64,000 bases of DNA from Morchella semilibera (Eukaryota > Ascomycota > Pezizomycetes > Pezizales > Morchellaceae): assembly GCA_009192285.1 (NCBI GenBank), contig WBVU01000008.1, positions 1,188,370-1,252,369 of the forward strand. Direction: 5' to 3'. Made by a program: the position numbers and the translations under genes. The notes below the pieces were generated by a model. The model ran no database searches. It was given only the letters and a program-made list of their open reading frames with translations, and was not told the DNA's origin. Of this stretch, positions 9,641 through 53,895 are shown one piece after another. The stretch's first letter is position 1. Each line of letters starts with the position of its first letter.

Positions 9641-10489
9641 ATGGCTGAGATGGAATGCCAGCCTATTAAATTTCGACGGTCCGTATGCTCCGGTGGCGTA
9701 TTTTCAAGCTCTATTGCTCCCCCAACTGCACCATCAGCTCCTGTTCTCCCCCTAGATCTCTTTCTCCTTCTCAGTACTTATCTGGACACCAAGACACTCT
9801 CCCGCCTCTCCCGCACCTGCCACAGCCTGCACGGACTTCTCGCCCGAAATTTAAAGCGTCACCATATCTTTCTGCTAGTAGGCGACTACCTGAACTGGAA
9901 CGAAGGGCCACCTAAGAGGCCTGTTTTGAATTTGAAAGATTATTCCATACTCCCCCATAAAGCTTGCCCCCGCCCTATCTTCCGTCTCTCACGCACCTGC
10001 CGCACCCTCCATCATGCACTCGCCCCCTTAGTGGGGGAGTTTAGAGTAAGGTACGCGATGATTCTCATCCGTCTATGGGCTAGATTCAACCGCCACGTCG
10101 AGCTCCAGCGTTGCCTCACAGACATGGGGCAGTCCTCATCTATCGTGCTGCACCACTGCGGCAACGGCACAGTTGCATATGCGGTCTTGATGGGCTATGA
10201 AGAAGTGGTGAGGGTGCTTCTAGACTACGGATTTAGTACTGGGGATACTCCCCTGGAGGGTCGGGATCGTTGTATATGTACGCCGCTGTGTGTGGCGGTT
10301 CGGAGAAACTACCTAGGAATTGCAAGAATGCTGCTGGAGAGGGGGGCAAGGGGTGGACGGTCGGATTGGTTTGGATGGTATTGTTGGGAGGAACTTTCGG
10401 TGGATATGATGACTTTGTTGATGGAGTATAAGAGGTTAGATCTACGTGCTGTCCTCGACGATGGGGTGGAGGATTCGACGCTAGCCTAA
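9641..10489 (+). CDS. F-box and ankyrin-repeat protein, duplicated F-box core
   Basis: The 282-residue protein probably acts as a substrate adaptor of an SCF-type ubiquitin ligase: the F-box binds SKP1 and the ankyrin repeats bind a partner. The F-box covers about residues 36-76 (LPLDLFLLLSTYL, then LSRLSRTCHSLHG). A partial second copy of the F-box C-terminal half (FRLSRTCRTLHHALAPL) follows at about 113-130, after a basic linker (LKRHHIFLLVGDYL). Two ankyrin-like repeats lie at about 178-200 and 213-238, the second with a TPLCVAVRRNYLGIARMLLERGA-type layout. It is an intact single exon, and the ATG follows a conserved upstream site at 9509. Closest relatives in the window are the genes at 11103 and 14989. 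Targets are unknown. Confidence 0.85.
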   Translation: MAEMECQPIKFRRSVCSGGVFSSSIAPPTAPSAPVLPLDLFLLLSTYLDTKTLSRLSRTCHSLHGLLARNLKRHHIFLLVGDYLNWNEGPPKRPVLNLKDYSILPHKACPRPIFRLSRTCRTLHHALAPLVGEFRVRYAMILIRLWARFNRHVELQRCLTDMGQSSSIVLHHCGNGTVAYAVLMGYEEVVRVLLDYGFSTGDTPLEGRDRCICTPLCVAVRRNYLGIARMLLERGARGGRSDWFGWYCWEELSVDMMTLLMEYKRLDLRAVLDDGVEDSTLA

Positions 10490-10777
10490 TTCTGATGGGA
10501 GGACGGGGAGGGAGCTGTCTTTGGCCGTTTCTATATATCGTTTAGGTAGAACGTGGGTTCTGTGTATTCAAATGCGTTGATGGTAGTGCCGGCCTGTTCC
10601 ATCCAATAGCGCCAGAATGAAATGCCTCCAATCAAGGACCATCATGATCAAGAATGCAGGCACCTAAATAGTTTTGTGAGAAGAGGTCCTGAGAGGAAAT
10701 ATCAATTACTAATTTTTAGGTCACATTCCGATCCTTGCAGAGTCAGTAAATGTTAATCAGCGTAGACAACCTTCTCT

Positions 10778-10936
10778 ATCCCTTAGTCTGTCAATGCTGA
10801 CCCCCCTATAATAGAGGAATTAAATTTGTATGGAGGATCTATTATTTGATAAGGGAGATAACGGGATCTGTTAGTAAAGCCACACAAAATTTGCTTCTTC
10901 TTGGGGGGTCAGCATTTTACTGACAAACTAAGGGAT
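10778..10936. mobile_element. MITE-like inverted-repeat element
   Basis: The left arm at 10778-10806 (ATCCCTTAGTCTGTCA, then ATGCTGACCCCCC) is matched by the inverted right arm at 10903-10936, which has five extra bases inside the arm. The total is about 159 bp with an AT-rich centre. The arms may extend outward by a few more bases (CTTCTCT-like). It lies between the first two F-box genes and codes for nothing. The superfamily is unclear because no clean target duplication is visible. Confidence 0.65.
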
Positions 10937-10972
10937 AAATCTAGAGAAAGATCTACATCCGTTACACAAAGT

Positions 10973-10985
10973 GCCACAGCGTGGC
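10973..10985. promoter_or_regulatory. conserved inverted-repeat site upstream of the second F-box gene
   Basis: GCCACAGCGTGGC, preceded by GTTACACAAAGT, lies 130 bp before the ATG at 11103, almost the same spacing as at the first gene. It sits immediately outside the right arm of the MITE-like element, so it is not part of that element. Confidence 0.55.
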
Positions 10986-11102
10986 GCTGCGCCCAAGCCC
11001 TGCCAACTCAGCCTATATTACTGGTAAGGCTCGAAAAACGTCTGTCTTCACATTCAAAACTTACCAATATATATTCTTGAGCGATTTCATAATTTATCCA
11101 AT

Positions 11103-11873
11103 ATGGCCCCTGGACTAGATAAGAGGTCCACCAGGAACCGTCAGTCCATACTACCCCACAATAAACTACACACCCGTCCAGAGCCTCCCCAGCTCCCCAT
11201 TGAGCTCTTCCTCCTCCTTGGTACCCACTTGGACACCCAAGCCCTGTCCCGACTCTACCGTACTAGCCGTACCCTCAAGTTCTTCCTCACCCCGACTTTG
11301 AAACGACACCGAGTCTTCCGCTTAGTCGGTACGTATCTCTTTTGTGCCCAACGTTGGGAGCGTGGCATCCGCTCCTCAATTCTCCGCCTATCCCGCACAA
11401 GCCGCACCCTGCACCACGCACTCGCGCCCCTGGTGCGGGAGTGCTACTTCGACTATGCTCCTACCTATATCCACCGGTGCATCCGCAGCTGCCTCAGCCT
11501 TCATGTGGGATTAGATATTTGCCTCGCCGCCATCGGCCCGCTGGACCAGCACTCTCGCCTGAATTACCAGGGTATTGAACCGCTTGCATGGGCTGTTACG
11601 GTGCGGTATCCTGATGAAATGATCGTACGGGTACTACTAGACCACGGGTTCAACCCGCATGGCGTGTGTCCTAGCTGGAATGCCCACTATGTGTCGCCGC
11701 TGGACTTGGCCTTAAGGGGCGGGCACTTGGGGATTGCGAGGATGATGTTTAAGGGGGGGATAGTGGGGGGGGGGGGGTTGTGCAACTCCCAGGGGTTCCG
11801 GCTGACGGATGAGGTGTTGGGGTTGTTAAGGGGGTATTGGGTGAAGGTCAAGGGATATGGAGGTTTTGCATAG
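11103..11873 (+). CDS. F-box and ankyrin-repeat protein, duplicated F-box core
   Basis: The 256-residue protein is of the same subfamily as the gene at 9641. The F-box spans about residues 31-72 (LPIELFLLLGTHLDTQALSR), followed by the basic LKRHRVFRLVGTYL linker and the second core (LRLSRTSRTLHHALAPL, about 94-110). Ankyrin-like repeats follow at about 160-183 and 198-220. A run of 13 G (11765-11777) inside the coding sequence encodes four glycines at about 222-225. Slippage there would shift the frame, so the C terminus may vary between strains. The start MAPGLD is shared with the gene at 14989, which supports it. Likely an SCF adaptor; target unknown. Confidence 0.85.
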   Translation: MAPGLDKRSTRNRQSILPHNKLHTRPEPPQLPIELFLLLGTHLDTQALSRLYRTSRTLKFFLTPTLKRHRVFRLVGTYLFCAQRWERGIRSSILRLSRTSRTLHHALAPLVRECYFDYAPTYIHRCIRSCLSLHVGLDICLAAIGPLDQHSRLNYQGIEPLAWAVTVRYPDEMIVRVLLDHGFNPHGVCPSWNAHYVSPLDLALRGGHLGIARMMFKGGIVGGGGLCNSQGFRLTDEVLGLLRGYWVKVKGYGGFA

Positions 11874-14901: not shown

Positions 14902-14988
14902 GTCAATGCGCACATCATAAACCCCGCAGCTTGAATTAGAATAAAACATAATATTGAGAACCTTCAACAAAACGTGTCTTCTCCAAAG

Positions 14989-15741
14989 ATGGCCCCTGGA
15001 CTAGATAACCAATCTATCAATCCTTGGCAGTCCATACTATCTTCTCTTCCATTCGAAATTTTCCTCATACTCGGTACTCACCTCGACACTCGTAGCCTTT
15101 CCCGTCTATCTCGTACCTGTCGTACGCTTCATATCCTCCTCGCCTTTCAATTAAAGCGCCACCATATCTTTCGCTTAGTTGGCCCCTACTTCCTTCGCGC
15201 CGACCGCTGCCTCGATGTCCCCCGTCCCTATCGCCGTTTGACCCCGCGCTCGGGATCCATCTTCCGTCTCTCCCGCACGTGCCGTACCCTCCAGAATGCC
15301 CTCGCCCCCTTTGCACACGAGCTCCATCTTGGATATGCACCCATGTACATCCACAAATGCACCAACCTCAACGACCACCTGGGGGTCGTGCGCTGTCTCA
15401 CCTCAATTGGCACTCCCTACCCCGATCTCTCCTATTATGCTGAGTTACCGCTAAGATACGCGGTATTGAAGCGGCGTGAGAAGATTGTGGAGGTACTGCT
15501 GGATCATGGGCTTAGTCCCCATGGCCGGAAGTGTGATTTGAGGACGCCCCTAATGGTCGCGATAGAGAATCAGGATGAAGGGATTGTGAAAATGCTGTTA
15601 GAGAAGGGGGCACGAGTCGGTAATGTATGGAGAGTGCAGCATCACCGGTGGGTGGGATATTCGATGAGGCGCCTGTTGGAGGAATATGGTATTGAGATGA
15701 AGTGGGAGGTTCGTCGTGGTACAAAGTCGTTCTGGGTGTAG
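14989..15741 (+). CDS. F-box and ankyrin-repeat protein, duplicated F-box core
   Basis: The protein has 250 residues from the ATG at 14989, chosen because it then starts MAPGLD like the gene at 11103. An ATG 15 bp upstream (14974) is in frame. The F-box begins near residue 20 (LPFEIFLILGTHLDTRSLSR, LSRTCRTLHILLA) and runs into the LKRHHIFRLVGPYFL linker. The second core (IFRLSRTCRTLQNALAPF) follows, then two ankyrin-like repeats (PLRYAVLKRREKIVEVLLDHG and TPLMVAIENQDEGIVKMLLEKGA types). Intact single exon. A 14-G run (15889-15902) lies 150 bp past the stop. Function as an SCF adaptor is inferred from the domains. Confidence 0.85.
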   Translation: MAPGLDNQSINPWQSILSSLPFEIFLILGTHLDTRSLSRLSRTCRTLHILLAFQLKRHHIFRLVGPYFLRADRCLDVPRPYRRLTPRSGSIFRLSRTCRTLQNALAPFAHELHLGYAPMYIHKCTNLNDHLGVVRCLTSIGTPYPDLSYYAELPLRYAVLKRREKIVEVLLDHGLSPHGRKCDLRTPLMVAIENQDEGIVKMLLEKGARVGNVWRVQHHRWVGYSMRRLLEEYGIEMKWEVRRGTKSFWV

Positions 15742-17328
15742 GAACGTTTGTCTTTTGAGTTTTGATCGGTAGCCTAAGAGGCATAGACCAGTACTCCTGT
15801 TGTATATAGACCACCCAGCCGATGGGTAGGGCTTTGTGTAATGTATCGCCATTCCCGGCGCACAGGCCAACAGGTTTAGGGTAGGATCGGGGGGGGGGGG
15901 GGATATTGTGGGAAAACAGTGATTTTTGCGTGCATCCATGACTGGCGTAGGATTTTCCTTCCTCTTTCTTACAATTATTAACACCCTCAGATTTGACAGT
16001 AGTGGATATTTTCAGCTTTACCATCCAAAGCGCCACAATGTGGCTTTGCGCAGGTTGCCCTACACGCAAGCCCTTAGCAGTCAACTAACCAGAGCTTGGG
16101 AGACGACGATCCTTATCATATCCAATTAACACACACTTTCTTTTTCCCACTCGTCACTGGAGTTTAGACGACCTAACTTTTATCGAGCTATTCCTAAATT
16201 GTCAATCGGACATGGAAGCACATTTATTGACTTTTAATTTTGGCAGTTTATATTCCCACGCATTAATTAAGTCCCTAGAATTCTTGGTAGAACAGGCTCA
16301 CAAAACTTCACAGGACATAATTAACGGGTAAGCATTAACCCCGCAATAAGTCTACCACTCCCCTACCAAACCCTCACCTCATTCCCCTCTCCTTCCCGCC
16401 TAGCTCCAATCAGGAATTATCCCTCCCGAAGCCTCTATCCCTGGAATAGCCAACGTCGCAAAGCGCAAACATGTGTTTCCAATCGTCGGTGAAGTAGTAC
16501 CTCAACACTCCCGACAACTACATATATCACTCCAACTACTGAAAGTTCTACAAGAGCGGCGCCCCCTGGCTATGCTAATCTCCCCAGCATAACCCCCTAC
16601 GTACCGTTCAGATAAGGCATACTAGCATGAGGGTTTAACCACTTGATCTGGTTTTTCTTTTGTACTGTATATAGTTCATTGTGAGGTTGATCCAGCCCAT
16701 GTCCTATATACATCGAAAGCTCCTACTACCAATAACTATATGCGGGATCAGCATGTCCTATCATAAGAAGTAAACTCAGTATGTTTTGCTTTTGCGCCCC
16801 AGGTGCGCGCGGAGCGTAGAGCTTATATTTAAACTAAACTCCATAACGAACCGGACACCGTTGAGGAAGTAGAGAGTGTTGCCTTTAAACCCATTTACCC
16901 ACCTTTCGCACGTTCCTATCTTCTATTTTCTTTATCGGCAAGGAAAGTCAAGTCACCACTAGGAGGGGAGAGGTCGACTGTCATAACCTGCGTGCGCGTT
17001 ATATGCATGTAAATTATATATAAATAAACGAAATAACGGGTGCCGGACATCCATCATGCGATATCACTCGATCAATCACTATATCCTCTGTTTATTTATT
17101 TATTTGTTGTACTTCATACATGCATTTATATCTTCTGTTTGATCAGCTGAAAATTCATACACCTATCCCTTCTATTGAACAAACTACAATTCGCGGTTGT
17201 TGACACCTGGGGGGTACCAAAACCCCCAACCCAGGAAACCACAGCTGCTGCAACCCAAAGTAACGCCATCTCACGAGACTCATAACCAAACATCGCCCAT
17301 TACCCCTCAAGGAACTCGAGCATCAAAC
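15742..17328. other. intergenic; orphan copy of the F-box upstream site
   Basis: No gene seen. At 16032-16044 stands GCCACAATGTGGC, a perfect GCCACA/TGTGGC inverted repeat in the same context (ACCATCCAAAGC before, TTTGCGCA after) as the sites upstream of the three F-box genes. Its partner gene is missing. The nearest family member is the relic 1.3 kb downstream. Confidence 0.45.
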
Positions 17329-18030
17329 ATGCCCACCCCCACGTCAAAACTACCACCTAAGCTTTTTCTACTAATCGCGGACCACCTCTCCACCGCCTCC
17401 CCCCTCCCGCTTCTCTCGCACTAGTCATACACTTCAAATCATCCTTATCCACCACTCAAACGGCGCCATGCCTTGGTGCTAGTTGGCCGCTATCTCTATC
17501 TGCACGGCTCTCCCTGCTCTGAGCATATATTTCCAGTCAACTGTCTCGGCCCCTGCCGTCGCTGCGACTTCAGCTTACATTTTCACGTCTCTCCCGTACC
17601 TGTCGCACCGCCTACCACGCCCTTACCACCTCTCCTCAATGACCGTTTTAGGCTCGATGCACGTAGGATCATTATCATTACGTTGATTCATGACCGCCTC
17701 TAAGATGTTAAGCGCTACCCAGCCATTCCCGGCAAAAACACCATAGACGTCCACCACTGTCTCTTCTGCGCGGTCACACTCGGTAGGCCCATGTTTGTCC
17801 GCAGATTCTCGACCACGGCAGCCTAGCATGGAAGAGACAGAGCGGTAACGAGACAGGTCCACTCCGGCATGCCATACGTTACGGGCGGGTGGAGATTACG
17901 GGGATTCTGCATGCTGAGCGGGGGCAAGGGTGGATGTGGGGACTCGTTGTATCTTTAGACCTACGGGTGCGCCGGAGGAGGTTAAGGCACTTGTTTTGAA
18001 GTATGTTGGCTCCGTAGAGACGGATCATAT
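17329..18030 (+). pseudogene. F-box/ankyrin relic of the duplicated-core subfamily
   Basis: From the ATG at 17329 the frame encodes a good F-box N-terminal half (KLPPKLFLLIADHLSTA), then breaks at a TAG near 17422. Later frames keep the subfamily hallmarks: RRHALVLVGRYLYLHG, matching the basic linker of the intact genes, and FSRLSRTCRTAYHALT, matching the second F-box core. The rest is scrambled by stops and frame changes, with a last recognisable ankyrin-like tail near 17970-18015. It is therefore a fourth, dead member of the group at 9641, 11103 and 14989. Confidence 0.75.
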
Positions 18031-20437: not shown

Positions 20438-21049
20438 ATGTCGACCTGCACACCACTCTATGATGAGTACCAAAGCACCCCCGACGCCTCCTCCACCCCC
20501 TCCCCCCCGATGGGGTCGCCATTCCCGCTCCTCGACTTCCCCCTCGAGATCCTTCTCATGATCGCCGATTTCCTCCCCACGCGCCCCCTCTCGCTCCTCT
20601 CGCGCACCTGCCGCACCCTGCACGACACGCTCTCCCCTCTCCTCGCGCTCCACTTCGAGTCCCAAGCCGCGGGAATCAGCCACTACGCCGCGCGGCACAA
20701 CAACCCCGCGCTGCTCGCGCGCGCCCTCGCCTTCTACGACCCCATCCGGCCGCTCGGCGGGTTCTTCATGCTTCGCCTCGCGTGCAGGCATGGGTTCGAG
20801 CAGATTGTGCGTCTGCTGCTGCAGCATGGCGCACCCACGCACCGTGCGACGCTGCGGTGCGCGCTCGGGGATGGGAAGTTTGCGATTGCGCGCATTTTGT
20901 TGGAGTATGGCGCGGATTGGGGAAGGTGGGGGATGGTGGATTCGCAGGTGGAGGATGGGGAGTGTACGGTGGTGGAAAGATTGTTGATGGAGTATGGGGC
21001 CCGGAGGGATGGGAGTGGGTATCTTGTTAAGGGTGGTGAGGCCGAGTAG
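20438..21049 (+). CDS. F-box and ankyrin-repeat protein
   Basis: 203 residues; an ATG at 20510 would give 179. The F-box begins about residue 30 (FPLEILLMIADFLPTRPLSL, LSRTCRTLHDTLSPLL). It is followed by a helix typical of this subfamily (HFESQAAGISHYAARHNNP) and about three ankyrin-like repeats (MLRLACRHGFEQIVRLLLQHGA; FAIARILLEYGA; VVERLLMEYGA). Base composition flips inside the gene: line 20581-20640 has 34 C and 10 G, line 20941-21000 has 4 C and 29 G. An 11-G run starts 4 bp after the stop. Intact; SCF adaptor role inferred. Confidence 0.85.
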   Translation: MSTCTPLYDEYQSTPDASSTPSPPMGSPFPLLDFPLEILLMIADFLPTRPLSLLSRTCRTLHDTLSPLLALHFESQAAGISHYAARHNNPALLARALAFYDPIRPLGGFFMLRLACRHGFEQIVRLLLQHGAPTHRATLRCALGDGKFAIARILLEYGADWGRWGMVDSQVEDGECTVVERLLMEYGARRDGSGYLVKGGEAE

Positions 21050-23235: not shown

Positions 23236-23802
23236 TACAACTATTGACAGGGTACAGGACTATTAATAGGGTACATAGCAACGGAAGCAATATACTATCC
23301 ATATTATACTGAGAGAATATGAAATATAAATAACGGTCGCAAAAGGATATCAGTAGGGTACAGGACTATAGTTAGGGTATATCGAAAAAGTATGAAATAT
23401 ACTATACAGTTGTTATAAACTATCGGTAAGGTACAAGACTATAGATATGGTACATCAGAAGAAGTATAAAGTATGTGAAATGGTTGTTATTATCTATCGG
23501 TAGGGTATAGGACTATAGACTAGGTACATTGCACTGAATATAAGTATAGTTAATGGTTGGCATGGACTATCGATAAGGTACAGGACTATAGATAGGGTAC
23601 ATCGGGAGTACCATATAAAGTGAACAATTGTTATAAACCATCGGCAAGGTACAGAACTATAGTTAGGGTACATAAAAATGTATAAAATATAGCAGTATAC
23701 GATCGGTATAAACTATCGATAAGGTACAGGACTATATATATGGTACATCGAAAACGTAAAGTGTTGGTATATGGTTGCCATGAACTATCAGTAGGATACA
23801 TG
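23236..23802 (+). repeat. GGACTATC-n-TAGGGTACA repeat array, right block
   Basis: About seven diverged units with a period near 85-90 bp, each with a core like ACTATCGGTAAGGTACAGGACTATAGATAGGGTACATCG, separated by AT-rich spacers containing GTTATAAAC or TGGCATG. Same orientation as the left block. There are no genes inside. Confidence 0.75.
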
Positions 23803-23918
23803 ACGCACTACATAATGTGGGTTTATCTGGATCCTCAATCTAACATTATATTAATATATATAAGCCTATCTCAAATTTACAACCATACTTTACTGTTGAT
23901 ACCAATCAAATCGCGGAA

Positions 23919-34600: not shown

Positions 34601-34962
34601 CGCGTCCATTATATCGGGATATGAGGGATAATGTATGTGTTTGTGGGGTATCAATTTTATTCTACGCGCCCCCCTCATGCGGTTCCATTAATTGCACACA
34701 AGGCTGAATTTATGGAAATTATGTGTATATTATCAAAACCAAGTATATTCTAGAGTTCGTGGCACAGATCAGAGAAATTCTCTCGAGAACCGTAGCGCGG
34801 GGAAGTGAAGCAGTGTATCTTGAACCTATATCGTGGCTAAGAGATTGACATGATTATCCCGAAAATCCCATTACATGTGTATAAATATATATTAGTATAA
34901 ATTAGGTCAAGATGTTGTTACACAGCAATGCAAACGTCGACCACCCCTCTTTACTTGATACT

Positions 34963-39589: not shown

Positions 39590-40080
39590 AGAAAATGACT
39601 CACTATATACATACCCGCCCGCACTCCCTACAAACTATCAAAGTGAATCGAGAAATGAATCATGCGATCAAATGTGACATATAATAATGCATCAAATAAC
39701 TATGGGGAAACGAACCAGTAAATGAATCTTAAGTTCATTTTGCCACTTAAGTTCACACATTTCCCATCCAAATCCCCAAAAAGAAAATGTTCTTGATGAG
39801 AGTTAAACTCTCACTATCTTGAATCTTTATCCTAGATCTTATCACTTCCGCCAACACTTCAGATAATAACATTTAAGAGAAAGCAGTAAGAAAGGGTTAT
39901 TGATTGATAATGGATCAGTAAATGAATCAGGTAAGGGAATCAAGTAAATGGATCAAGTAAAGGAATCAAAGATTTTATTGCAACTAACGTCCCCCGAAAA
40001 CGAATCACTGGATTCATGTCCCAAAACTGCCTGAGTGGGAATGATTCGTTTCCAGAGCTGGTAGTGACTGTGGTGTCATG
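39590..40080 (-). repeat. SINE-like repeat with a tRNA-related part, copy 2
   Basis: A diverged copy of the repeat at 38935-39440. The tRNA-like part is at about 39864-39790 on the minus strand. It shares GTGATAAGRTYYAGG-type bases with copy 1, and its own T-arm-like TGAGA, GTTTAAC, TCTCA closes perfectly. The ATGAATCA motifs and the CAAAACTGCCTGAGTGGGAA block match copy 1. The pair marks the boundary between the two opposing F-box arrays. Confidence 0.5.
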
Positions 40081-40787
40081 TCGAAATCTTTGCCAAATAT
40101 GTTCTAGGCCAATCCCAAGTCCGAAGAATGACGAACTTTGACCACCGACTAAATGGTAAGGTCCATCTGACTGCACGGGATGCAATAGCGGTGGTGGAGT
40201 GTTCAGGGTATCGCTAATTATAGCATAGCTGAAAAGCATGATATGTATACATGCGGGATCGATTATCAGCATCTTATGGCCCTTTTGAATAGTATCGCGG
40301 CTTCAATTATTTAAATTGCCTTGGCAACCCTTGCACAAAGCTCTAAATATTTTTGGCCTTGCAGATTGCCTTTCTGTTGCCTCTTGTAGCTTGAAAGATG
40401 GAAGTTCCAAACTATTCTAGTAAAACATCGAAGGATGGTCATTTTAGCTTACGAGCGATTGTAGTGCCTATATCTTCTTCCTGTAAGTCGGCTATAGGTA
40501 TACGGATTCCATCACTGAACCATTGTTTAAGATGAGGAGCTGGTCCATCTTTACTGTACAGCGACAGGTAACAAGTGATGGAATGCCCTGAGGTACAAAC
40601 ACCAGATGTTGGTGGCGTTTTACCAAAACAGGCGTCGCTGTGTTCCATCGCTTATTACCTGCTACTGTACAATGATAAGAGGCGAAATAGTAAATGCCCA
40701 AAACCAACAGCGAAGGTTGGCAAAGGGAGGATCCACATGCCCGTGTCCTCCTCGATACCTCCTCCACCTACGCTCGCGAACATGGTT
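40081..40787. other. intergenic, no gene seen
   Basis: Only short overlapping frames; no domain or repeat recognised. Confidence 0.35.
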
Positions 40788-41300
40788 TCAACGGCAGCGC
40801 TTGTCCCCATGCAGCTCCTCATTCCAATAGAATGTTGGCAGTACCCTCCTCGCATAGTAGTCAGTCCTCAACAGCTCAGCGATCCCCCAATCCTCCCTCA
40901 TCATCGCCACATTTACAGGAGTCATAACCACCAATCCACTATCAGCCATGTGTACGTCTGCCCCTGCCTTGAGCAAAATCTTAGCAACTTCTTTATCACC
41001 TGTATAGACTGCGCGCAACAACGGCATCAAATCTATTGCCTTGGGGTGTACAGGTTCCTTATCCAGCAGCTGTCGCACCATCTGCGTTTGTGCGTGGTCC
41101 GTGGCGTTGCCGCGAGGCTTCGTCTCATATATCTACGGACAGCGCGCGGGATAGGAATTTGGAATGGTAGTGGGCAGTGGCCTAGACAATGATGGCTCTT
41201 GCCCCCTCCGTGAAGAGGCTGTCGAGGAAGGGGGTGAGGAGAAAGTAGAGGGTAAGGCAGCTACGAGAGAGGGCAGATACGGAGCGGGTGCAAGGGAAGC
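40788..41300 (-). pseudogene. F-box/ankyrin pseudogene with nonsense codon
   Basis: The 3' half is open (about 41081-40788) and encodes ankyrin repeats: MPLLRAVYTGDKEVAKILLKAGA, then MTPVNVAMMREDWGIAELL. Upstream (41290-41180) the F-box C-terminal half is readable (VSALSRSCLTLYFLLTPF, SLFTEGARAIIV), but a TAG replaces the tryptophan found at this point in relatives. The LPPEL start of the F-box is not recognisable. It is the first member of the minus-strand array. Confidence 0.7.
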
Positions 41301-42168
41301 GGGAATTTATAAGTAGAAGTTTAAGCGGGAGGAACGAGAGATATGGGGGGTGGGGGGATGGCTAGAATAGGATCTAGCTTGGTCTGATATCCTATGTTGT
41401 TAAAAAGCATAAAACACAACGGTTCTAGTCTACAAATCCTGCAGCTAAGCATCTGCTAGAGCATTTGTGGGCAACCTGCCTTGTAGCATTATAGCTTTTT
41501 GGATTTCTGGACTGGGGAAAATGTGCTGTGAGGTGGTGATGCGGTAGAACGTGAAGAGGGTTGACTATGAGAACCGTGGACTGGAACTGTTCTAAAGACG
41601 AGCAAACGGCCCAATACAACCTGTCTATTACAATCTCGAAACACGCGCAGTTTATGAGATATGGGTGCTTTTATAATGGAAGGAAAGAAAGGAGTGGGTG
41701 TATGCAGCCCGCCCAAATCACAGGACATGCATGAGTACGCTCTGGCAATGACGTGACAACTGTGTATTGGCCGACAGAGTAATCATGACAAAGTCACGAG
41801 CCTAGGTTGCTAGCCAACAGTGGGCCTATGGCCAGGGGCGCCCCAGTCCTCGCGCAGGGATCGTTTATCTACAGGTGCCTCTAATGATGTCTGTGATATT
41901 GATAGCCACCATGCATCTATTTAGGTCTGTCATTGACGCAATAGATGAACAGTTAAGTGTTAGGCTTTGAGTCGATACGCTGAATTACAAAGAACAACAA
42001 ATCAATTCGTGCAGCTATAACCTACCCACTAGCTGCACATCACTCTTGAAGCAACAACGGGGCAAGGATCAGCTGTACTTACAGCCACCCATCAGAGTTG
42101 TCCATCATTCGGATTTAATATGACATGCCCGGCTCAAGCAGTTATCAGACTATGCATTGAAATGTTGA
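41301..42168. other. intergenic, no gene seen
   Basis: Nothing supported apart from short shadow frames. Confidence 0.35.
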
Positions 42169-43394: not shown

Positions 43395-43938
43395 CTAAGA
43401 GCGTCCATAACCTACCCATATATAGTCCTGCTGGTTACTCCACTTTAGTGCTCTTACCAAGCTAAAACCTACCAACAGATCAACCATCCTCTCATGCGCT
43501 AACCTCTCCGCCGCTTCTACCGGCGTCATATAGCCCAACCACCCCTCCCGCTCGTGCACATTCACCCCCGCCTCCGGTAGGATCTCGGCCATCTCCCAAT
43601 CCGCTGAATACACCTGTACCCCTTTACCCACTCCCGGAGGGGGACCGTGGGCAAGTAGCAACCGGGCCACGTCATAGGAGCGCCATGCGATCCGGATGGT
43701 GGGTACTAGGGAGAGGGCGCGGGAAAGAGCGGCGACGTGGGTGTATTGAGCGGTGAACTGGAGGGGGTCGGGAGTGGTGAAGCGGGCGATAAGCATGAGG
43801 GTGAGGTTCATGCGGCGGGAGGTTGGGGGAGTGGGTGGGGAAATAAATGGCGATACGGAGGAAGGGGTCGGTGGGGATCGGAGGAGGAGGAGGAGGAGGA
43901 GGTACGGACGTACATGATATACTACTAGTAGTGGCCAT
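43395..43938 (-). pseudogene. F-box/ankyrin pseudogene, frameshifted
   Basis: The ATG at 43938 (MATTSSISCT, proline run, then PIPTDPFLRIAIYFPTHS) starts an F-box, but the frame is lost near 43815 and the LSRTCH core is unreadable. The second frame (43811-43395) keeps the helix and ankyrin part: LLAHGPPPGVGKG, DWEMAEILPEAGVNV, and YMTPVEAAERLAHERMVDLL. A (GGA)n run at 43886-43904 makes the proline stretch. Confidence 0.7.
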
Positions 43939-44258: not shown

Positions 44259-44882
44259 TTAAGCCTCGATCTCCGCCTTCTTATCCTTTAACTTAGCCCT
44301 GTGGACTAGACCCGAAAATAGGATCTCCATCTCAGTGTCCTCCCACTGCAACACACAATTCATAATGTAGCTTATGCGATCTGGCTTGCCTTCCATATTT
44401 GCCCCCGCCTCGACCAGCATCTTGACCATCTCTCTCCTGTTGGAGGTGACAGCGCGAAACAGTGGCTTATTATTAGGCCATAAATTTGGGTCGGCGCCAT
44501 GGTTGAGCAGTACACGTACAATGTCCTCATTACCGCTGATCACGGCATCGAGTAGTAAGAAACTTAGATATTTCCTGAGGTCGCGCTTGGTGTTGCGCAG
44601 TACACGCCGCAGGAGGCTAGGGAGTTCCCTCCTGACTGCTCGGGTGGCGAAGAGTTTCGCGTACCTCCCGAGGAGAGAGTCTAGGGTAGGGGTAAGGAGA
44701 TTGTGCAGAGAGTGGCAGGTTCGGGAGAGGGCGGAGACGGCAGATAAACTAATTTGTCGCAGCCGTGGAGTGCCATTTCGCCGGGTGTCCTTTGTAGGAA
44801 GGAAAGAGGCAACGAGGAGTAGGAGCTCGGGGGGGAGAGTGTGGAGTGATGTGGGGTGTGTGGCCATCCTCGGTAGGGTCAT
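44259..44882 (-). CDS. F-box and ankyrin-repeat protein with an in-frame F-box insertion
   Basis: 207 residues (a second ATG five codons in gives 202). F-box start LHTLPPELLLLVASFLPTKD is followed by about 17 extra residues (TRRNGTPRLRQI...) before the usual core VSALSRTCHSLHNLLTPTL. The insertion would fall in the F-box loop. Next come the family helix (ARAVRRELPSLL-like) and ankyrin repeats: LDAVISGNEDIVRVLLNHGA and LFRAVTSNRREMVKMLVEAGA. The C terminus is lysine-rich. Otherwise intact. Whether the altered F-box still binds SKP1 is uncertain. Confidence 0.82.
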   Translation of the reverse strand: MTLPRMATHPTSLHTLPPELLLLVASFLPTKDTRRNGTPRLRQISLSAVSALSRTCHSLHNLLTPTLDSLLGRYAKLFATRAVRRELPSLLRRVLRNTKRDLRKYLSFLLLDAVISGNEDIVRVLLNHGADPNLWPNNKPLFRAVTSNRREMVKMLVEAGANMEGKPDRISYIMNCVLQWEDTEMEILFSGLVHRAKLKDKKAEIEA

Positions 44883-45298: not shown

Positions 45299-45811
45299 TC
45301 ACGTTCTAAACACGAATCGTGAAATATCCACTGTTATCCTCTCCGCCCCGAAGCTCGCCAACAGCTGCGCCATCTCCTCTAATGACCACAACTCCGCATG
45401 GTACATCGGCGTGTGATCCGTGCTCGGATCCTTCGCATTAATGTCCGCGCCTGCTTCCAGGAGCATTGCGGCCGCCTCGAGATTATTCAGGGTGACAGCT
45501 ACGAAGAGCGCTGGAGAGTGGTCATTGTACCACCTGTAGCGGTAGGGATTGGCGCCAGTGTTGGTGCTGTTTGGGTTGGCGCCGTTCGCGAGGGCGCGCT
45601 TGACTATTGAAGGGCGCCACGGCACTTCTAAGGCCCAAAAGAGGACGGAGGTGGCTTCTTCGCTGAAACGCTTGTTGAGGGGGCGGGAGAGGGGGGCGTA
45701 GAGGGTGTGGCAGGTGCGGGAGAAGAGGGATAGATCGCGGGTTGAAAGGTGCTCGGAAATCGTTAGAAGGAGCTCAGGAGGGAGTCTGAGTAGTGTTGTG
45801 GGGGCAGACAT
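45299..45811 (-). CDS. F-box and ankyrin-repeat protein
   Basis: 170 residues from the ATG at 45811 (MSAPTTLLRLPPELLLTISE), preferred because relatives start just before LLxLPPEL; an in-frame ATG 99 bp upstream would read through a telomere-like box. F-box core HLSTRDLSLFSRTCHTLYAP, then NKRFSEEATSVLFWALEV. Ankyrin repeats: IVKRALANGANPNSTNTG, ALFVAVTLNNLEAAAMLLEA and HAELWSLEEMAQLLASFGA. Intact; predicted SCF adaptor. Confidence 0.85.
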   Translation of the reverse strand: MSAPTTLLRLPPELLLTISEHLSTRDLSLFSRTCHTLYAPLSRPLNKRFSEEATSVLFWALEVPWRPSIVKRALANGANPNSTNTGANPYRYRWYNDHSPALFVAVTLNNLEAAAMLLEAGADINAKDPSTDHTPMYHAELWSLEEMAQLLASFGAERITVDISRFVFRT

Positions 45812-45871
45812 ACTGTACTGGGGGGATGGGGCGGGTTGTTTGGTAGTGGCCGGATGGGTGTTGTGGATATC

Positions 45872-45886
45872 TAACCCTAACCCTAA
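45872..45886. promoter_or_regulatory. telomere-like box upstream of an F-box gene
   Basis: TAACCCTAACCCTAA lies 61 bp upstream of the ATG at 45811 (on the gene strand it reads TTAGGGTTAGGGTTA). It could bind a telobox-type factor or be a remnant of DNA-break repair. Confidence 0.55.
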
Positions 45887-45989
45887 TACACCCCAAGACC
45901 ACCGAACCATTTCAATTCCTAATTTCCACTGCCGCCACCGTTGTTATTATTATTATTGCCATTTTGAATGTGAAAAGTGACAAATTGAG

Positions 45990-46760: not shown

Positions 46761-47291
46761 TCACCAATGCCCCGTGCAACAGGTACCTTCAGGCCCCGAG
46801 TCGCCCTCACAGTCCGTCTCCGACTCTTCAGAGCCCGAATCATCGTCCAGATACTGATGGCCTACCCCCTCACTGAACATCTGCAACAGCTCCTCCAGAT
46901 CATCGCGCTCGGCTCCCGTGTGCTCCCCCGAATGGGGAAATGTCCTTACCCGCTTGTCCACGTCCGCGCCCGCCTCCAAGAGAACGCTGGCAATCTCGAA
47001 GCTGCATACTGTGACGGCGATGGCAAGCGGGCACTCGTAGTCATCACCATCCGGATCGGCGCCTTCTGCGAGGGCGCGTTTGACAATCGTCATGTTTTTG
47101 CGGGATACCGCCCAGATAAGGATGGCTGTGGGTTCGGCGGCGAAGCGCTTGGCGAGGGGAGATGTCAGGGAGGAATGTAGGTGGTGGCAGACACGGGAGA
47201 GGACAGAGAGGTCGCGGGTGGAGAGGTGGTCCGCGGTGAGAAGGAGGAGCTCGGGGGGGAGGAGATGTAGTAGTATTGCAGAGGAGGACAT
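46761..47291 (-). CDS. F-box and ankyrin-repeat protein with acidic tail
   Basis: 176 residues. MSSSAILLHLLPPELLLLTA is an unambiguous start and F-box, with core HLSTRDLSVLSRVCHHLHSS, then AKRFAAEPTAILIWAVSRKN. Ankyrin part: IVKRALAEGADPDGDDYECP, LAIAVTVCSFEIASVLLEA. The last 40 residues are acidic and Ser/Cys-rich (SGSEESETDCEGDSG) and replace the final repeat seen in relatives, so the C terminus may come from an earlier frameshift. A partial telomere-like box (ACCCTAACCC) lies at 47392-47401, 101 bp upstream. Confidence 0.82.
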   Translation of the reverse strand: MSSSAILLHLLPPELLLLTADHLSTRDLSVLSRVCHHLHSSLTSPLAKRFAAEPTAILIWAVSRKNMTIVKRALAEGADPDGDDYECPLAIAVTVCSFEIASVLLEAGADVDKRVRTFPHSGEHTGAERDDLEELLQMFSEGVGHQYLDDDSGSEESETDCEGDSGPEGTCCTGHW

Positions 47292-48469: not shown

Positions 48470-48967
48470 TTACCCCCACGAATCCCTCAAGACAAAGTAC
48501 TCCGAGGGGTCCGGCCGCGGCAGGCGCCCTCCATACCTCTGCAACAGCCTCACCATGTTGTTATCGTTGAGGTTATACGCATATATCACGGGCGGATCAT
48601 TGAACAGATACGGGTGTGTTTGGTTTATGTCTGCGCCAGCCTCCAGAAGTAGCGTAGTGACCGGTATGTCACTGTTGATGACGGTGAGGGCCAGAAGTGG
48701 AATTCCCCTCGTCCATGGCTCCTCGTAGGACTGGCAGGTGATGTCGGCGCCGTTCGACAGGGCTCGCTTGATGAGGGCGATACGCTTGCGAGGGACGGCC
48801 CAGCAGAGGATGGAGGTGGCTTCGGCGGTGAAGCGTCTTTCGAGAAGAGGTGTGAGCAGAGTGTGGAGGTTTTGGGATGTTCGTGAGAGGAGGGATATAT
48901 CACGGGTTGGTAGCTTATCAGCAATAAGGAGAAGGAGCTCTGGGGGTAGCGAGGGCAGGGGGGCCAT
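48470..48967 (-). CDS. F-box and ankyrin-repeat protein
   Basis: 165 residues from the ATG at 48967 (MAPLPSLPPELLLLIADKLP); an in-frame ATG at 49039 gives 189. F-box core TRDISLLSRTSQNLHTLL, then ERRFTAEATSILCWAVPRKR. Ankyrin repeats: LIKRALSNGADITCQSYEE, LALTVINSDIPVTTLLLEAG and a final YAYNLNDNNMVRLLQRYGG. Intact. It is closest in style to the genes at 45811 and 47291, suggesting local tandem duplication. A telomere-like box stands at 49116-49128. Confidence 0.85.
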   Translation of the reverse strand: MAPLPSLPPELLLLIADKLPTRDISLLSRTSQNLHTLLTPLLERRFTAEATSILCWAVPRKRIALIKRALSNGADITCQSYEEPWTRGIPLLALTVINSDIPVTTLLLEAGADINQTHPYLFNDPPVIYAYNLNDNNMVRLLQRYGGRLPRPDPSEYFVLRDSWG

Positions 48968-49115
48968 GGTTGTGGTCGTGGAGGTTGTCTCGCCATGAAT
49001 GCTGAGAACGATAGAGACATAACTTATAACCACTGCCACGCCAAGTATTCAGGCACCCGACCTGTAGAGTAGTTCAAGATGGTGATGCCTGAAGGGCGTG
49101 GGTTAATTTCCACAG

Positions 49116-49449: not shown

Positions 49450-49765
49450 GCTGGCAGCTGTAAGATTTCCGACCGCTGCGGCGCAGGTGAGAGGTGACCA
49501 GCCGTAGCCACTGCCGTCGGGGTTCGCACCGTGTCGGAGGCAACGTTCAATGGAGGTGTAGCCGCTGTTGGGCTTTACTATGCCCAGCGCAAGATGGTTT
49601 GTGAAGTAGGTGTCGAGGAGTGGCGTGAGTAGTGTCTGAAGGGTGTCGCAGGTGCGTGAGAGAACAGGGAGGTCACCAATGGAGAGGTATGAGGCGATAT
49701 GGAGGTAAAGCTCAAGGGGTAGTGTTGGGGGTGTCGAGTTCGACAGATGAAGAAGCGTGGCCGAG
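49450..49765 (-). pseudogene. F-box/ankyrin relic, start lost and tail missing
   Basis: A single open frame reads SSATLLHLSNSTPPTLPLEL, YLHIASYLSIGDLPVLS, RTCDTLQTLLTPLLDTYF and one ankyrin repeat (IERCLRHGANPDG, WSPLTCAAAVGNLTAAS) before a TGA. The position of the start ATG reads TTATCGATAAGC (no ATG), and the last repeats are gone. Confidence 0.7.
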
Positions 49766-50079
49766 CTTATCGATAAGGTGACGTCACAGGTATGGTTGTG
49801 TAACCATATTCATAGGAAACATGAGGCTCTTCATACATGCATTCTGATGTCTATGAAGCACTATCGCTAGCTAGCCAAGGAAACAGCCTAACCAGAAATA
49901 TTCCAAGGGCATATCATCTGGTACACTGTAGACCAAGGACTTCATAGCATATATTGTCAGCCCTCGAACCGCTCATCGAGATACGTCTCTCAACCTTATC
50001 GCCGTAATGATTCAGGGGCCATCACTGCCCCGTAGCACACCAAAAGGCGAATCATATTCTCATTGCAGCATCTATTCGC

Positions 50080-50445
50080 CTACATGACCGGCGCCCCACC
50101 GCTCCTGTCCGATATCGGCTCGTGAACGTCGGCACCAGCGTCGAGCAGGATCTTGCTGCATCCAGTTTGTTGAAAAAAAATGGCCAAGTGAAGGGGGGTT
50201 GGGCTGCACTTAACGTCCGCGCCATTCTTGAGGGCACGTTCGATGGAGGCGACGCTCTGTCCTGGAGTCACTGCCTAGACGGGAATAAAGCTGGCCTGTG
50301 CTGTGAAGTGGGTATCGGGGGTGGTGGTAAGCTTTGTATAGAGAGACGACAACTCCGCGAAAGGACGGAGACAACTTCCGTGCTGAGGCTTTCCATGATT
50401 AGGAGAAGGAGCTTGAAGGGTGAGAGAAGCATGATTGCTGGAAGG
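50080..50445 (-). pseudogene. F-box/ankyrin relic
   Basis: Upstream frame: KLLLLIMESLSTEVVSVLS, RSCRL. A frame change follows, then LYTKLTTTPDTHFTAQASFI, a TAG, and a readable ankyrin part: VASIERALKNGADVKCSP, TPLHLAIFFQQTGCSKILLD. At least one indel and one nonsense codon. Confidence 0.65.
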
Positions 50446-50576: not shown

Positions 50577-51183
50577 CTAGGAGCCTTGCTCGAGCCCGAC
50601 TAGGATCCGATGATTTAACATGGTCAAGGCGCCAGAACCACCGGGGAACTTTTTCTGCGAGTCACCTCCGCACTCGCTACAGAGCTTAGGACCATGTTCC
50701 TGCAGAGCTCTGCTCACCAATCTAAAATCCTCGACCCCATGTCCACCCCTTCCCCATTGTGGTGGCGTTGGTGGCCTTGCAGCCCCATAACTCACCAGCA
50801 GATGAACCACATCCTCATTATTCAATTTGTATGCATGCATTACGGACATCTCATTGTTCCCGGGGGCAATTGCTTGTTTAACATCCGCCCCAGCTTCAAG
50901 CAAGACCTTTGCAGGTTCTCGGCAAAAACCGCTGTGCACAAGGGTGTGCAGTCCCTGCCCCCGTTCAGATTGGCGCCGTACATGAGGGCGCGCTCGATGA
51001 GCGTGAGGTCCTAGTCAAATGCTATTGCCCAGGTGAGGAATCGGCCTGCGCAGTGAATATAGAGTTCAGGGCGGGGGTGACGATGGACGCCGTGGGAGGT
51101 GCGTGAGAGCCCGGAGATCACGCATGGTACGTTAGGTATCTGGCGATCACGAAGAAGAGTTCCGGGGGCAGTGAGGTAAGCAT
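50577..51183 (-). pseudogene. F-box/ankyrin pseudogene with several lesions
   Basis: The ATG at 51183 starts MLTSLPPELFFVIARYLTYH, then TGA. A second frame has ISGLSRTSHGVHRHPRPELY and a TAG after FLTWAIAFD. A third part has LTLIERALMYGANLNGGRD and CTPLCTAVFAENL. A final frame (50939-50577) holds KVLLEAGADVKQAIAPGN and YKLNNEDVVHLLVSYGA. All family modules are present in order but separated by two frame changes and two stops. Confidence 0.7.
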
Positions 51184-51228
51184 GATGAGCGGAAGGATTC
51201 GTTGATCGAGAAAGGATGGGGTTGTATA

Positions 51229-51357: not shown

Positions 51358-52108
51358 TGCACTACATAGTAATGCGCCGTCGGTGCGCGACCGGGGTCTT
51401 GGCCTTGGGTTTGTGGCGTACCTAAGCTCCCTGATATCAAAAACAATCTTTTGGAATTACTTTCAGAGTTACTCTGTCAACATTCTATATCCCTACAAGT
51501 TACTTCAAGTGGTTATTCTGTCAAGAAACCCAAGAAGTTTATATATTAGTTCGCGTGACGGAGTCGTCATAGTGGGTTAGGGTTACTGGCTTGCGACCAA
51601 CCGTTTCAAGAATGATTGTCCTCTCCACCGTGCCCACTGGCATCGTTGTCGGGAAAGGTTAAGAGCGGCTGTCAAATTACAAACCAGAATGTGTACGTCA
51701 CGTAGCTAATAGAACTCTACATAACCCCATACATTTTCCGTGGTAGGCCTTGCTGAATGCTGCTTTATTCTAGCCGCCACTTCATATATTATTGGTAACG
51801 CTACATGTACGCATGAGAGTTATGTTGCGGGTTTCTTATACCCCTAGAACATCACAAAGGGGGGGGGTTGTTCGCTGTAATAGTGGGTGAATCCTCAATT
51901 TAATACGTCTCTGTTGTACTCATTAGAAGTCCTACTACCGGGGGCAATATTAGAGCCTACGGTATCTAGGAGTTCAATTAACTTAAGCCCTTTGGATCCA
52001 TGTAGTAAACAGTAATATAATACAAGAAATTAAATAAAACCCCATATACCCGCACACACTCAAACGTATGGCGCGGCGTGTTTTAAAGGTGACATAAATT
52101 GCGTTGCG
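51358..52108. other. intergenic with a telomere-like dimer
   Basis: GGGTTAGGGTTA at 51574-51585 and a 9-G run near 51859. No gene seen. Confidence 0.45.
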
Positions 52109-52217
52109 AACAACTTTTCAACAGAACAGGATCAAAAATCTATGAAGCCAAATTGTAGGCATAGGTATGGTAAAGATGGCTTCATAGATTTTTGATATCT
52201 TGTGTCGAAAAGTTATT
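52109..52217. mobile_element. 109-bp foldback element
   Basis: The left arm 52109-52150 (AACAACTTTTCAACAGAAC, then ATCAAAAATCTATGAAGCCA) is inverted at 52177-52217 with a handful of mismatches. The inner 20 bases (ATCAAAAATCTATGAAGCCA) are perfect. A smaller hairpin TCCAGCCA, TAAAG, TGGCTGGA follows at 52323-52343. Non-coding. Confidence 0.75.
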
Positions 52218-52760
52218 AGCGATATTTTTGTATGTAAAAAGTGCCAAGACCTGGTGAAGTGGAACAGTATTATACCCATTTATACCCCTTCATTACAGAT
52301 CAGTTGCGGCTAAGATGTGGTTTCCAGCCATAAAGTGGCTGGATTACAATGCTCTAATTGGTTTAAAAGCATCCGGAGCAGCCAAGATCGTTCCGGCTGA
52401 GATACGGCATGCACCTTTAAGGCGCGCCGCACCATAAATACAGAAAATGAGTGTAAAAGAGGTACTCTAATGGAATATTCGGGAATAGTATCATCTAACA
52501 CTGTAAATGCATCGCTGATGTCACCTACAGAAGGAATCCTCTGTTCTTGAATGATTCGAGTATTTCCCAACATCACTCTAGTGGGTAATGCATAAATTTT
52601 GGTTTACGTTGCGGATGGAGGGGGACTACTAAATCCGATAGGAAGGAGGTCTCAAGGATAGGAAACAAAATATGTATCATACCAGAGATTCCATGAGGAG
52701 GAGGACAGGGTAGATAACGGTATTTTTCTTCGCTTCAATCCAATATCTCGACCACATGAT
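52218..52760. other. intergenic, no gene seen
   Basis: A minus frame at 52310-52576 reads like ordinary protein but has no recognisable domain and no relatives in the window; I leave it uncalled. Confidence 0.35.
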
Positions 52761-53216
52761 CTAAATAAAGAGTCCCGGGCGGAATGGCCCCATCGCCCCG
52801 AACCACATCAATAGTTCCTCTGTCCCCAGATCATTCGTGTCTCCTGCCGTCTGTGCCGACCGGGTATGGGTCCCCTCCCGCAGTTCCATCCTTGCACCCG
52901 CGGCGATAAGCATCCTGGCCGCATCTACGGTCCCTTGGTGGACGGCGTAGGTCAGGGGCGGTGTGCCCTCATTCCAATCGTTCACGTCTGCGCCGTGAGA
53001 AATGGCACGTTTGAGGATATCCAGCTTGTTCCAGTGCAGGGCCCACCAGAGAATACCGGTTGCTTGCGATGTGAAGTGCGTGATGAGGAGAGGGTTAAGG
53101 AGGGCACGGAGTGTGTGGGAGGTGCGGGTGAGAATGGAAAGGGCGGGCGTAGGGAGATGGGACGCGATGAGGAGAATGAGCTCTGGAGGGAGCCTATACA
53201 GGCTGATGGGTGACAT
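52761..53216 (-). CDS. F-box and ankyrin-repeat protein, short
   Basis: 151 residues. MSPISLYRLPPELILLIASH is a clean start, with F-box core LPTPALSILTRTSHTLRALL, then THFTSQATGILWWALHWNKL. Ankyrin part: ILKRAISHGADVNDWNEG, PLTYAVHQGTVDAARMLIAA, and a degenerate last repeat ending in LLMWFGAMGPFRP. Intact and the outermost intact member of the minus array. Confidence 0.82.
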   Translation of the reverse strand: MSPISLYRLPPELILLIASHLPTPALSILTRTSHTLRALLNPLLITHFTSQATGILWWALHWNKLDILKRAISHGADVNDWNEGTPPLTYAVHQGTVDAARMLIAAGARMELREGTHTRSAQTAGDTNDLGTEELLMWFGAMGPFRPGLFI

Positions 53217-53459
53217 GAGTATATATTGGCTGGGGATATCGAAGTTGATGGAGCTGCTGCCTCTGACGCCCGAAAAACTCTGTAACTCGATGTCACATGC
53301 TTGGGTAACCTGGTATGCAAGTCGACAAAACAGGGAAAGGAGGCTTCGAGTCTAGTTTGATAATATATTTATATAAAGAGGCTAGAAATACCTGTACACA
53401 TGGGCAGGGGAACACGCCACACCCCCCGGCCCCGCGCCAGCTACCGGAACAAAGGCACC

Positions 53460-53895
53460 CCCCGCTCCTACGGCCTCACCGCTCCAAACTGCACCAACAA
53501 CCTCATCACCTTGACATTGAGTGAGCCCCTCGCGACATCCGCCGGTGTCATAATGTAACAGTCAGGCAAATTTATGTCCGCCCCAGCCTCGATCAGCATT
53601 TTGATAAGGGCTAGGACGCTGTGGACGTTGCGGATGGCATGGATCAGCGGGGGTGGCCATTATTCGAGTCGCTAACATCAGCGCCAGCCAATACGGCGCG
53701 CGTAAGGGTTCCAGCGAAGCATCTAGATGAGCATTGGGGTTGCCTGGGCGATGAAGGTATGATTGAGTAGATTTAGGGGGGTGGGGTAGGTGTGCGGGGG
53801 AGGGTGGGGACGGCGGCCGCGGGGAGATGGTCGGCTATGAGGAGTATAATCTCCGGGGGGAGTGTGCGTAGAGCTGTAGAGGGCGCTATCACCGT
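53460..53895 (-). pseudogene. F-box/ankyrin relic
   Basis: F-box start TALRTLPPEIILLIADHLPA with core LPRTPTPPP ending at a stop. A later trace reads LTRAVLAGADVSDSNN, and the final repeats are readable (LIKMLIEAGADINLPDCY, MTPADVARGSLNVKVMRLL, QFGAVRP). Several frame changes. Outermost member of the array. Confidence 0.65.

Follow-up and report, generated by a model that had tools for sequence, protein, structure and literature searches.

The genome of Morchella semilibera harbours a densely packed cluster of small and highly diverged F-box/ankyrin genes, part of which lies in the window, the 64,000-nucleotide stretch of DNA analysed here. Dispersed 5S genes and the content of the family would suit a filamentous ascomycete. 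The cluster comprises 35 F-box/ankyrin loci in ~82 kb, organised in direction blocks of +11, -12, +1, -9, and +2, with four orientation switches. These loci probably represent a single birth-and-death cluster, grown by local tandem duplication with the direction of the genes kept, in which rare switches left blocks. A sequence-only reading had described two arrays facing each other in the window, with every member on the left on + and every member on the right on -.

Family loci in the window were searched by tblastn, using 13 window members as queries, and by an iterated profile HMM in six frames, and fragments were merged manually into loci. The searches revealed 22 loci, and not the about 25 genes and relics counted before, including weak fragments at 17.5 kb (E 0.0095) and 51.1 kb (E 0.015). 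Eleven loci are located on the + strand, spanning 9.6-38.1 kb, and eleven on the - strand, spanning 40.9-53.9 kb. Neither tblastn nor the profile HMM detected a member in the opposite direction within either array. The strict separation of directions thus holds inside the window without exception but not beyond it, where three + loci are found to the right of the - block.

The + side starts with three open frames of a duplicated-core subfamily (9641..10489, 11103..11873, and 14974..15741), the second of which scores below all Pfam cut-offs but clearly matches the family, followed by a weak relic (17299..17627) and an open frame (20438..21049). Two F-box/ankyrin-like members (27471..28190 and 29186..29731) and a further member (30183..30678), whose frame is split in the window's contig, C22, and open in contig C21, lie within an assembly-noisy stretch. 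An open frame (33030..33749), a relic spread over two frames (34930..35492), and the final gene of this side (37468..38058) complete the + array. The - side opens with a relic (40866..41358) and an F-box/ankyrin-like partial member, in which the profile match starts past most of the F-box (43395..43811). Four open frames follow (44259..44882, 45299..45910, 46761..47291, and 48470..49039), then a truncated member (49450..49767), a relic with internal stops (50026..50441), and a relic with a weak F-box fragment (50754..51186). The last members in the window are an open frame (52761..53216) and the rightmost relic (53471..53898).

Seven of the 14 family open frames scanned clear the F-box Pfam cut-off (PF00646 / PF12937), six score below it, and the remaining one, the relic at 50.6 kb, lacks any F-box match; the ankyrin cut-off is cleared by nine of the 14. 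Across 16 members with 150 residues or more, the three duplicated-core genes excluded, pairwise identity averages 0.47 in the F-box, compared with 0.29-0.34 in the linker and ankyrin regions. In the structure model of the 37.5 kb protein (mean pLDDT 80), helices at the N-terminus precede ankyrin-like helix pairs, and the fold of the model matches ankyrin/DARPin chains. Going by their titles, all of the 50 Foldseek matches listed for this model are ankyrin/DARPin structures or complexes, and the F-box part has no match of its own among them. Ankyrins also lead among the best 60 of 531 matches in a profile search of PDB sequences. The domain content suggests that the F-box/ankyrin proteins are likely substrate receptors of SCF (Skp1-cullin-F-box) ubiquitin ligases, in which the F-box would dock on Skp1 and targets would be picked by the ankyrin part, which varies more.

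The duplicated-core subfamily was claimed to exist only on the far left of the window, and the genome search agrees. The 15.0 kb protein has strong matches only with itself and with two others, the 9.6 and 11.1 kb members (E <=1.2e-37), all three present in both contig copies, and the next genome match has an E value of only 1.1e-7. The relic at 17.3 kb, with its best match to the 9.6 kb member, may be a fourth member of the subfamily. The structure model of a duplicated-core protein (mean pLDDT 56, with residues 1-92 below 50) is too poor to read.

The assembly carries this chromosome arm twice, and contigs C21 and C22 are identical across the window apart from positions 23250..30506, where 118 discrepancies were found. 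Because the discrepancies are mostly single-base indels and confined to this stretch, with identity elsewhere, we read them as assembly noise. Protein hits in C21 had hinted at other F-box genes at 27-31 kb, that is, at divergent alleles, a possibility that was rejected when the alignment gave one shared sequence. The better copy differs by member, with the fuller family match in the window's contig for the 27.6 kb member and in C21 for the 29.2 and 30.2 kb members. Since the assembly is unreliable at 23.25-30.51 kb, the three members at 27-31 kb are not gradable for intactness, and the noise bears on whether such genes are called intact or broken.

No family matches were found at the junction between the arrays (38.4-40.8 kb) by tblastn or the profile HMM, and at least two dispersed repeats are present there. 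The first and better defined, of 467 bp (38960..39426), possesses terminal inverted repeats, each end starting with CTCTACCA read inward and the inverted repeat going on imperfectly. The second (39624..40064) has loosely similar, TIR-like ends; its genome copies span 39624-40021, and the right end was set by the analyst. A third, short dispersed repeat is located at 40543..40674. SINEs lack terminal inverted repeats and have a head that stems from a tRNA, 5S or 7SL gene. The terminal inverted repeats of the first repeat speak against a SINE and make it MITE-like, and stringent searches for such a head, Rfam at gathering level and ARAGORN, gave no match there. The earlier description of the junction as two SINE-like repeats and no F-box gene is thus right about the repeats, at least two in number, and the lack of family members, but not about the class of the first repeat. 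Only two inverted repeat pairs of at least 60 bases were detected within the window (67 and 60 nt), and the longest inverted repeat at the junction has 35 nt.

The profile HMM revealed that the cluster runs 28 kb further right (C22:1253.6-1280.4 kb). Thirteen F-box/ankyrin loci are located in this right flank, ten on - and three on + (C22 positions 1255586, 1275651, and 1280197). Two transposon-like open frames on the - strand (54906..58758) lie between the - array of the window and its continuation outside; the frame at 56887-58758 clears the Transposase_21 cut-off and the one at 54906-56852 clears no cut-off. The arrays, which the sequence-only reading had placed at 9.6-53.9 kb, therefore continue in the longer contig. 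As three more switches occur just past the window, the premise that the split needs a special explanation is weakened.

With exchangeable orientations, the probability of the split is 2/C(22,11) = 2.8e-6 in the window, and that of at most five runs among 35 loci is 2.0e-6 in the cluster. Tandem copies, however, inherit direction, and uniform blocks are a common outcome of tandem duplication. If direction is inherited, no more than one switch among 21 adjacencies has a probability of 0.27 at a rate of 4/34, that of the whole cluster with the window, and of 0.03 at 3/13, the rate for adjacencies that lie outside it. The statement that random orientation would almost never give the split stands where directions are free, and carries less weight where copies inherit them. 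At the outside-window rate, 22 genes with one switch or none would be fairly improbable, which puts some strain on a view of tandem growth with rare switches. Vertebrate tandemly arrayed genes are reported to be 72-94% parallel in transcription direction (PMC2547482), and switch rates of 0.06 to 0.28 taken from this range, whose unit may differ from an adjacency, give probabilities of 0.64 to 0.009. Similar to the Morchella cluster, with 30 of 34 adjacencies parallel (counting units may differ), the vertebrate genes are mostly parallel, but that survey does not concern F-box genes.

The first tree included 18 of the 22 window loci and 12 of the 13 right-flank loci, the rest being dropped for short profile coverage, and in the second tree five more short or very divergent rows were removed. 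The off-cluster rows come from 20 stretches selected among the genome hits. Tree distance follows gene order inside the arrays (Mantel r 0.49, P 0.001), in the window (r 0.45, P 0.0002), and, without a mirror component, in the 30-row cluster (r 0.24, P 0.0008). Subclades of neighbours occur in both trees; those in the same direction are found in the first tree at 9.7/11.2/15.0 kb (98/95), 20.5-35 kb (95/91), and 45.8/47.3/49.0 kb (97/82), in agreement with the proposed tandem growth within each array. The 20.5-35 kb clade falls in the second tree, where four rows group at 89/32, the 33.2 kb member lies outside, and the 35 kb member is not included. Resolution is poor, with 24 of 50 inner branches drawn open in the first tree and 26 of 45 in the second.

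A phylogeny had been suggested to check whether + and - members pair symmetrically about the junction, and no mirror signal was found (Mantel P 0.32 and 0.26). Models that pair + with - members in parallel or in plain order were not significant either (P 0.65 and 0.20). The claim that the two sides are not simple mirror copies is supported by the same mirror tests and by the presence of just two inverted pairs of 60 bases or more in the window. Orientation alone is weakly related to tree distance, both in the window (r 0.19, P 0.038) and in the cluster (r 0.21, P 0.0002). Orientation changes on the tree are few: 2 among 18 window rows (shuffled mean 6.1), 4 among 30 cluster rows (shuffled mean 10.0; lowest of 30 circular shifts), and 3 among 26 rows of the second tree (shuffled mean 8.9; lowest of 26 circular shifts). 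Orientation follows ancestry across the whole cluster, and repeated movement between the arrays, which would have spoken against the earlier reading, was not seen. For the window rows alone, orientation is inseparable from proximity, because the observed value is equalled by 4 of 18 circular shifts and, in the second tree, by 5 of 16, with the actual arrangement counted among them.

In a single cluster growing by local tandem duplication, new copies would retain the direction of their parent. Four switches, including the one at 38-41 kb inside the window, would then leave blocks of uniform direction. The switches may be rare inversions or inverted re-insertions within the cluster, possibly aided by repeats.

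The inversion of one block in an array that was once entirely + is an unlikely alternative, in which the - genes from ~41 to 65 kb were flipped between flanking + genes at 37.5 kb and at a window-equivalent 67.2 kb. The succession of blocks along the cluster fits this explanation, and the junction repeats could be its breakpoints. The 37.5 kb gene joins two + genes past the - block in the first tree (83/82); however, this kinship was gone from the second tree. Furthermore, the two short inverted pairs do not bound the block within the window, its right end being outside, and exchanged neighbours at the block ends are absent from the free trees, a comparison with little power.

It is rather doubtful that the arrays descend from an ancient inverted gene pair, head-on founder duplicates near 39-40 kb from which they grew outward as separate clades. 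The orientation in the window takes just the two tree changes given above, and the AU test rejects neither a single clade for each array (P 0.42 and 0.33) nor sister placement at the junction (P 0.43-0.56); in the latter case, two of three constrained trees score slightly above the free tree. Nor was the + array minus the 37.5 kb gene rejected (P 0.52), its likelihood being slightly higher than that of the free tree. Nevertheless, none of 200 bootstrap trees recovers either array as a single clade, for the first or the second tree, the mirror signal is absent, the junction genes group with other relatives in free trees, and + genes reappear to the right of the - block.

There is a slim chance that the cluster is a direction-sorted, diverse repertoire of ubiquitin-ligase receptors, in which + and - lineages would have been long apart and the blocks kept by selection and not by chance. 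On this reading, common control of chromatin or transcription would be one example of what keeps the blocks, and a repertoire for self/non-self recognition or against mobile elements another. A false join in the assembly is a very improbable source of the change of direction at 38-41 kb: the arm is assembled in two copies, with obvious noise in one stretch of 7.3 kb, but the junction lies outside that stretch and is the same in both contigs (which may share reads and are not fully independent), and its inverted repeats reach at most 35 nt, therefore the sides are not palindromic copies.

Growth by tandem duplication, as preferred here, is known from another set of F-box genes. In Caenorhabditis, local tandem duplication, accompanied by some loss, was the main route by which a large F-box family expanded, and 43-74% of the F-box genes of four species were put down to tandem duplication (PMC8665587). 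The Morchella cluster resembles these arrays as a tandem F-box expansion; however, Caenorhabditis is a nematode, and array direction is not treated under the term 'orientation' in that source. Aspergillus nidulans possesses a set of 74 F-box proteins, 46 of them SCF-associated (PMC9744329). These are fungal SCF receptors, as the Morchella proteins may be, and ankyrin repeats are named in a supplementary figure legend, but the main text does not use the word 'tandem', whereas 35 loci form one cluster in Morchella. In the ascomycete Trichoderma, sets of ankyrin-domain and F-box-domain proteins are expanded (PMC3218866), although the account of these expansions lists them separately and names no F-box/ankyrin cluster. 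A Morchella genome paper describes an ankyrin-repeat family that varies between strains. No title with a fungal F-box/ankyrin cluster as its subject appeared in the literature searched, which is weak evidence of novelty.

The cluster is ordinary in kind. A direction split that is striking in a fixed window may hinge on the window ends and on a null of random orientation. The analysis documents a dense fungal F-box/ankyrin cluster, recalling the tandem F-box expansions of nematodes, and a duplicated-core F-box subfamily at a single spot of the genome.

The window, 64 kb of contig C22 (1188370-1252369) from a genome of 56.8 Mb and 23 contigs, was searched by tblastn with 13 family proteins and then with an iterated family profile HMM in six frames. 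Twenty-two F-box/ankyrin loci were found, a count that rests on the hand-joining of fragments. Eleven are on the + strand (about 9.6, 11.1, 15.0, 17.3, 20.4, 27.5, 29.2, 30.2, 33.0, 34.9 and 37.5 kb) and eleven on the - strand (about 40.9, 43.4, 44.3, 45.3, 46.8, 48.5, 49.5, 50.0, 50.8, 52.8 and 53.5 kb), and neither search of the window found a member of opposite direction within either array. Long open frames spanning the F-box and the ankyrin part are present in 11 of the 22 loci (6 +, 5 -), three lie inside an assembly-unreliable stretch, and eight are partial or broken. The strict split by direction proposed in the sequence-only reading is genuine within the window, but its figure of about 25 members is not. 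Its claim of a split with no exception depends on the position of the window end, since + loci recur to the right. Past a stretch with transposon frames, the cluster picks up again at 1253.6 kb of the contig and continues to 1280.4 kb with 13 further loci (-, +, nine -, +, +), giving 35 loci in total, 14 + and 21 -, in five runs. Within the 60 kb examined to the left, a single F-box/ankyrin gene (1132547, +) is accompanied by two large open frames with ankyrin repeats, and the array proper therefore starts at 9.6 kb. Genome searches found more members further left, at 1126.5, 1084.2 and 1085.2 kb, all -.

The surroundings include other elements. An NLR-like open frame of 993 residues, some 40 kb to the left of the window (C22:1146749-1149727), has NPHP3_N/NACHT ahead of many ankyrin repeats, and an 849-residue frame at C22:1173419-1175965 has ankyrin repeats across most of its length. 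A 5S rRNA gene lies at 2795-2914 of the window, with eight near-identical matches on both strands at C22:1128104-1140755, 48-60 kb to the left. Between family members are a DDE_Tnp_4 transposase frame (26056-26787) and a Transposase_21 frame with an adjoining unassigned frame (54906-58758). Degenerate short tandem repeats at 21765-23770, spaced mostly by 71-83 bp and built on motifs such as GGTACAGGACTAT, extend into a noisy assembly stretch.

A second contig with the same chromosome arm, C21, is identical to C22 over the window except at 23250-30506 (C22:1211619-1218875), where 118 discrepancies, chiefly single-base indels, separate the two. Within that stretch, family frames extend further sometimes in C21 and sometimes in C22, neither copy being uniformly better, and the differences were treated as assembly noise. 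Directions are unaffected, but neither the gene models nor the frame of the DDE transposase within this stretch should be trusted. Among the matches listed, many are paired between the two contigs up to about 1.52 Mb, with an offset that widens from about 0.15 kb to 1.7 kb, and beyond about 1.6 Mb the listed matches on one contig lack a partner on the other. Possible causes are a rearranged arm in a heterokaryon and an effect of assembly; C9/C10 and C12/C13 appear to be pairs too.

The F-box and ankyrin cut-offs were passed by 7 and 9, respectively, of the 14 family open frames scanned. The 37.5 kb protein is predicted (mean pLDDT 80) to have helices at the N-terminus followed by ankyrin-like helix pairs, and all matches listed in a fold search were ankyrins. 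Conservation across 16 well-covered members is highest in the F-box (mean pairwise identity 0.47), compared with 0.29 in the linker part, 0.34 in the ankyrin part and 0.22 at the C-terminus. In the first three genes (9.6, 11.1 and 15.0 kb), the later half of the F-box is present twice. Restriction of this duplicated-core subfamily to the far left was confirmed, as the 15.0 kb protein strongly matches only these three places in the genome (E 1.2e-37 or better), the next match having an E of 1.1e-7.

Between the last + and the first - member lie two dispersed repeats (38960-39426; 39624-40021) plus a third, short one at about 40543-40674, all with genome copies elsewhere. The first has imperfect inverted repeats at both ends (CTCTACCA...) and is therefore MITE-like, not SINE-like as the earlier reading had it; the ends of the second are loosely similar. 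Neither Rfam nor ARAGORN detected RNA genes at the junction. Another dispersed repeat of about 370 bp (52063-52436), within the - array, has at least 38 other genome matches (contig duplicates counted), many with a second, inverted match.

The arrays had been interpreted as outward growth from an inverted pair or as a folded single array. A mirror signal was absent from the cross-array distances (P 0.32 for ranks, 0.26 for kb), in agreement with the earlier remark that the sides are not simple mirror copies, as were a parallel signal (P 0.65) and a plain-order signal (P 0.20). Inverted repeats at the junction reach 35 nt at most. Only two inverted pairs of at least 60 bases occur in the window, both joining + and - sides: 67 nt (19.5 with 48.0 kb) and 60 nt inside F-box genes (27.7 with 45.7 kb).

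A first tree covers 53 proteins, from 18 of the 22 window loci, 12 of the 13 right-flank loci and 23 from elsewhere, including the left-flank gene. Its subclades unite neighbours of one direction, with support of 98/95 for the trio of duplicated-core genes, 95/91 for the + genes between 20.5 and 35 kb and 97/82 for three of the - genes. Neither array came out as a single clade, in this tree or among 200 bootstrap trees. After removal of five short or divergent rows, a second tree kept the duplicated-core clade (100/100), with weaker support for four of the + genes (89/32) and the three - genes (92/81). AU tests rejected neither a single clade for each array (+, P 0.42; -, P 0.33) nor a grouping of junction genes as sisters (P 0.43-0.56), so the trees have little power for deep questions.

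Genes closer together in order are also closer on the tree, whether compared within arrays (r 0.49, P 0.001), across the entire window (r 0.45, P 0.0002) or along the cluster (r 0.24, P 0.0008). The 30 cluster rows of the first tree require 4 orientation changes, whereas shuffling gives a mean of 10.0, and the real pattern beats every other circular shift along the chromosome (30 shifts). The second tree (26 rows) requires 3 against 8.9, the lowest of 26 shifts. When only rows from the window are used, the observed result is equalled by 4 of 18 and 5 of 16 shifts, a count that includes the real pattern; the extra orientation signal thus comes from the wider cluster.

Under free directions, the window split has a probability of 2.8e-6 and the five runs of the cluster 2.0e-6. 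Free orientation is, however, the wrong null, because tandem copies inherit direction. In the cluster, 30 of 34 adjacencies are parallel, compared with 72-94% reported for vertebrate tandem genes in PMC2547482. At most one switch in the window has a probability of 0.27 at the cluster's own switch rate, 0.03 at the rate from outside the window alone, and 0.64 to 0.009 at rates of 0.06 to 0.28. The case for an unremarkable single switch is thus fair, not overwhelming.

The earlier interpretation is half right, and the facing arrays are ordinary in kind. The mechanism with the best support is birth and death by tandem duplication, in which new copies would take over the direction of their parent and rare local switches would change it. 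F-box proteins bring targets to SCF ubiquitin ligases, and ankyrin repeats are widespread binding modules, so the proteins of this cluster probably act as substrate receptors of such ligases; fungal F-box proteins in SCF complexes (PMC9744329) and tandem F-box expansion (PMC8665587) offer precedents.
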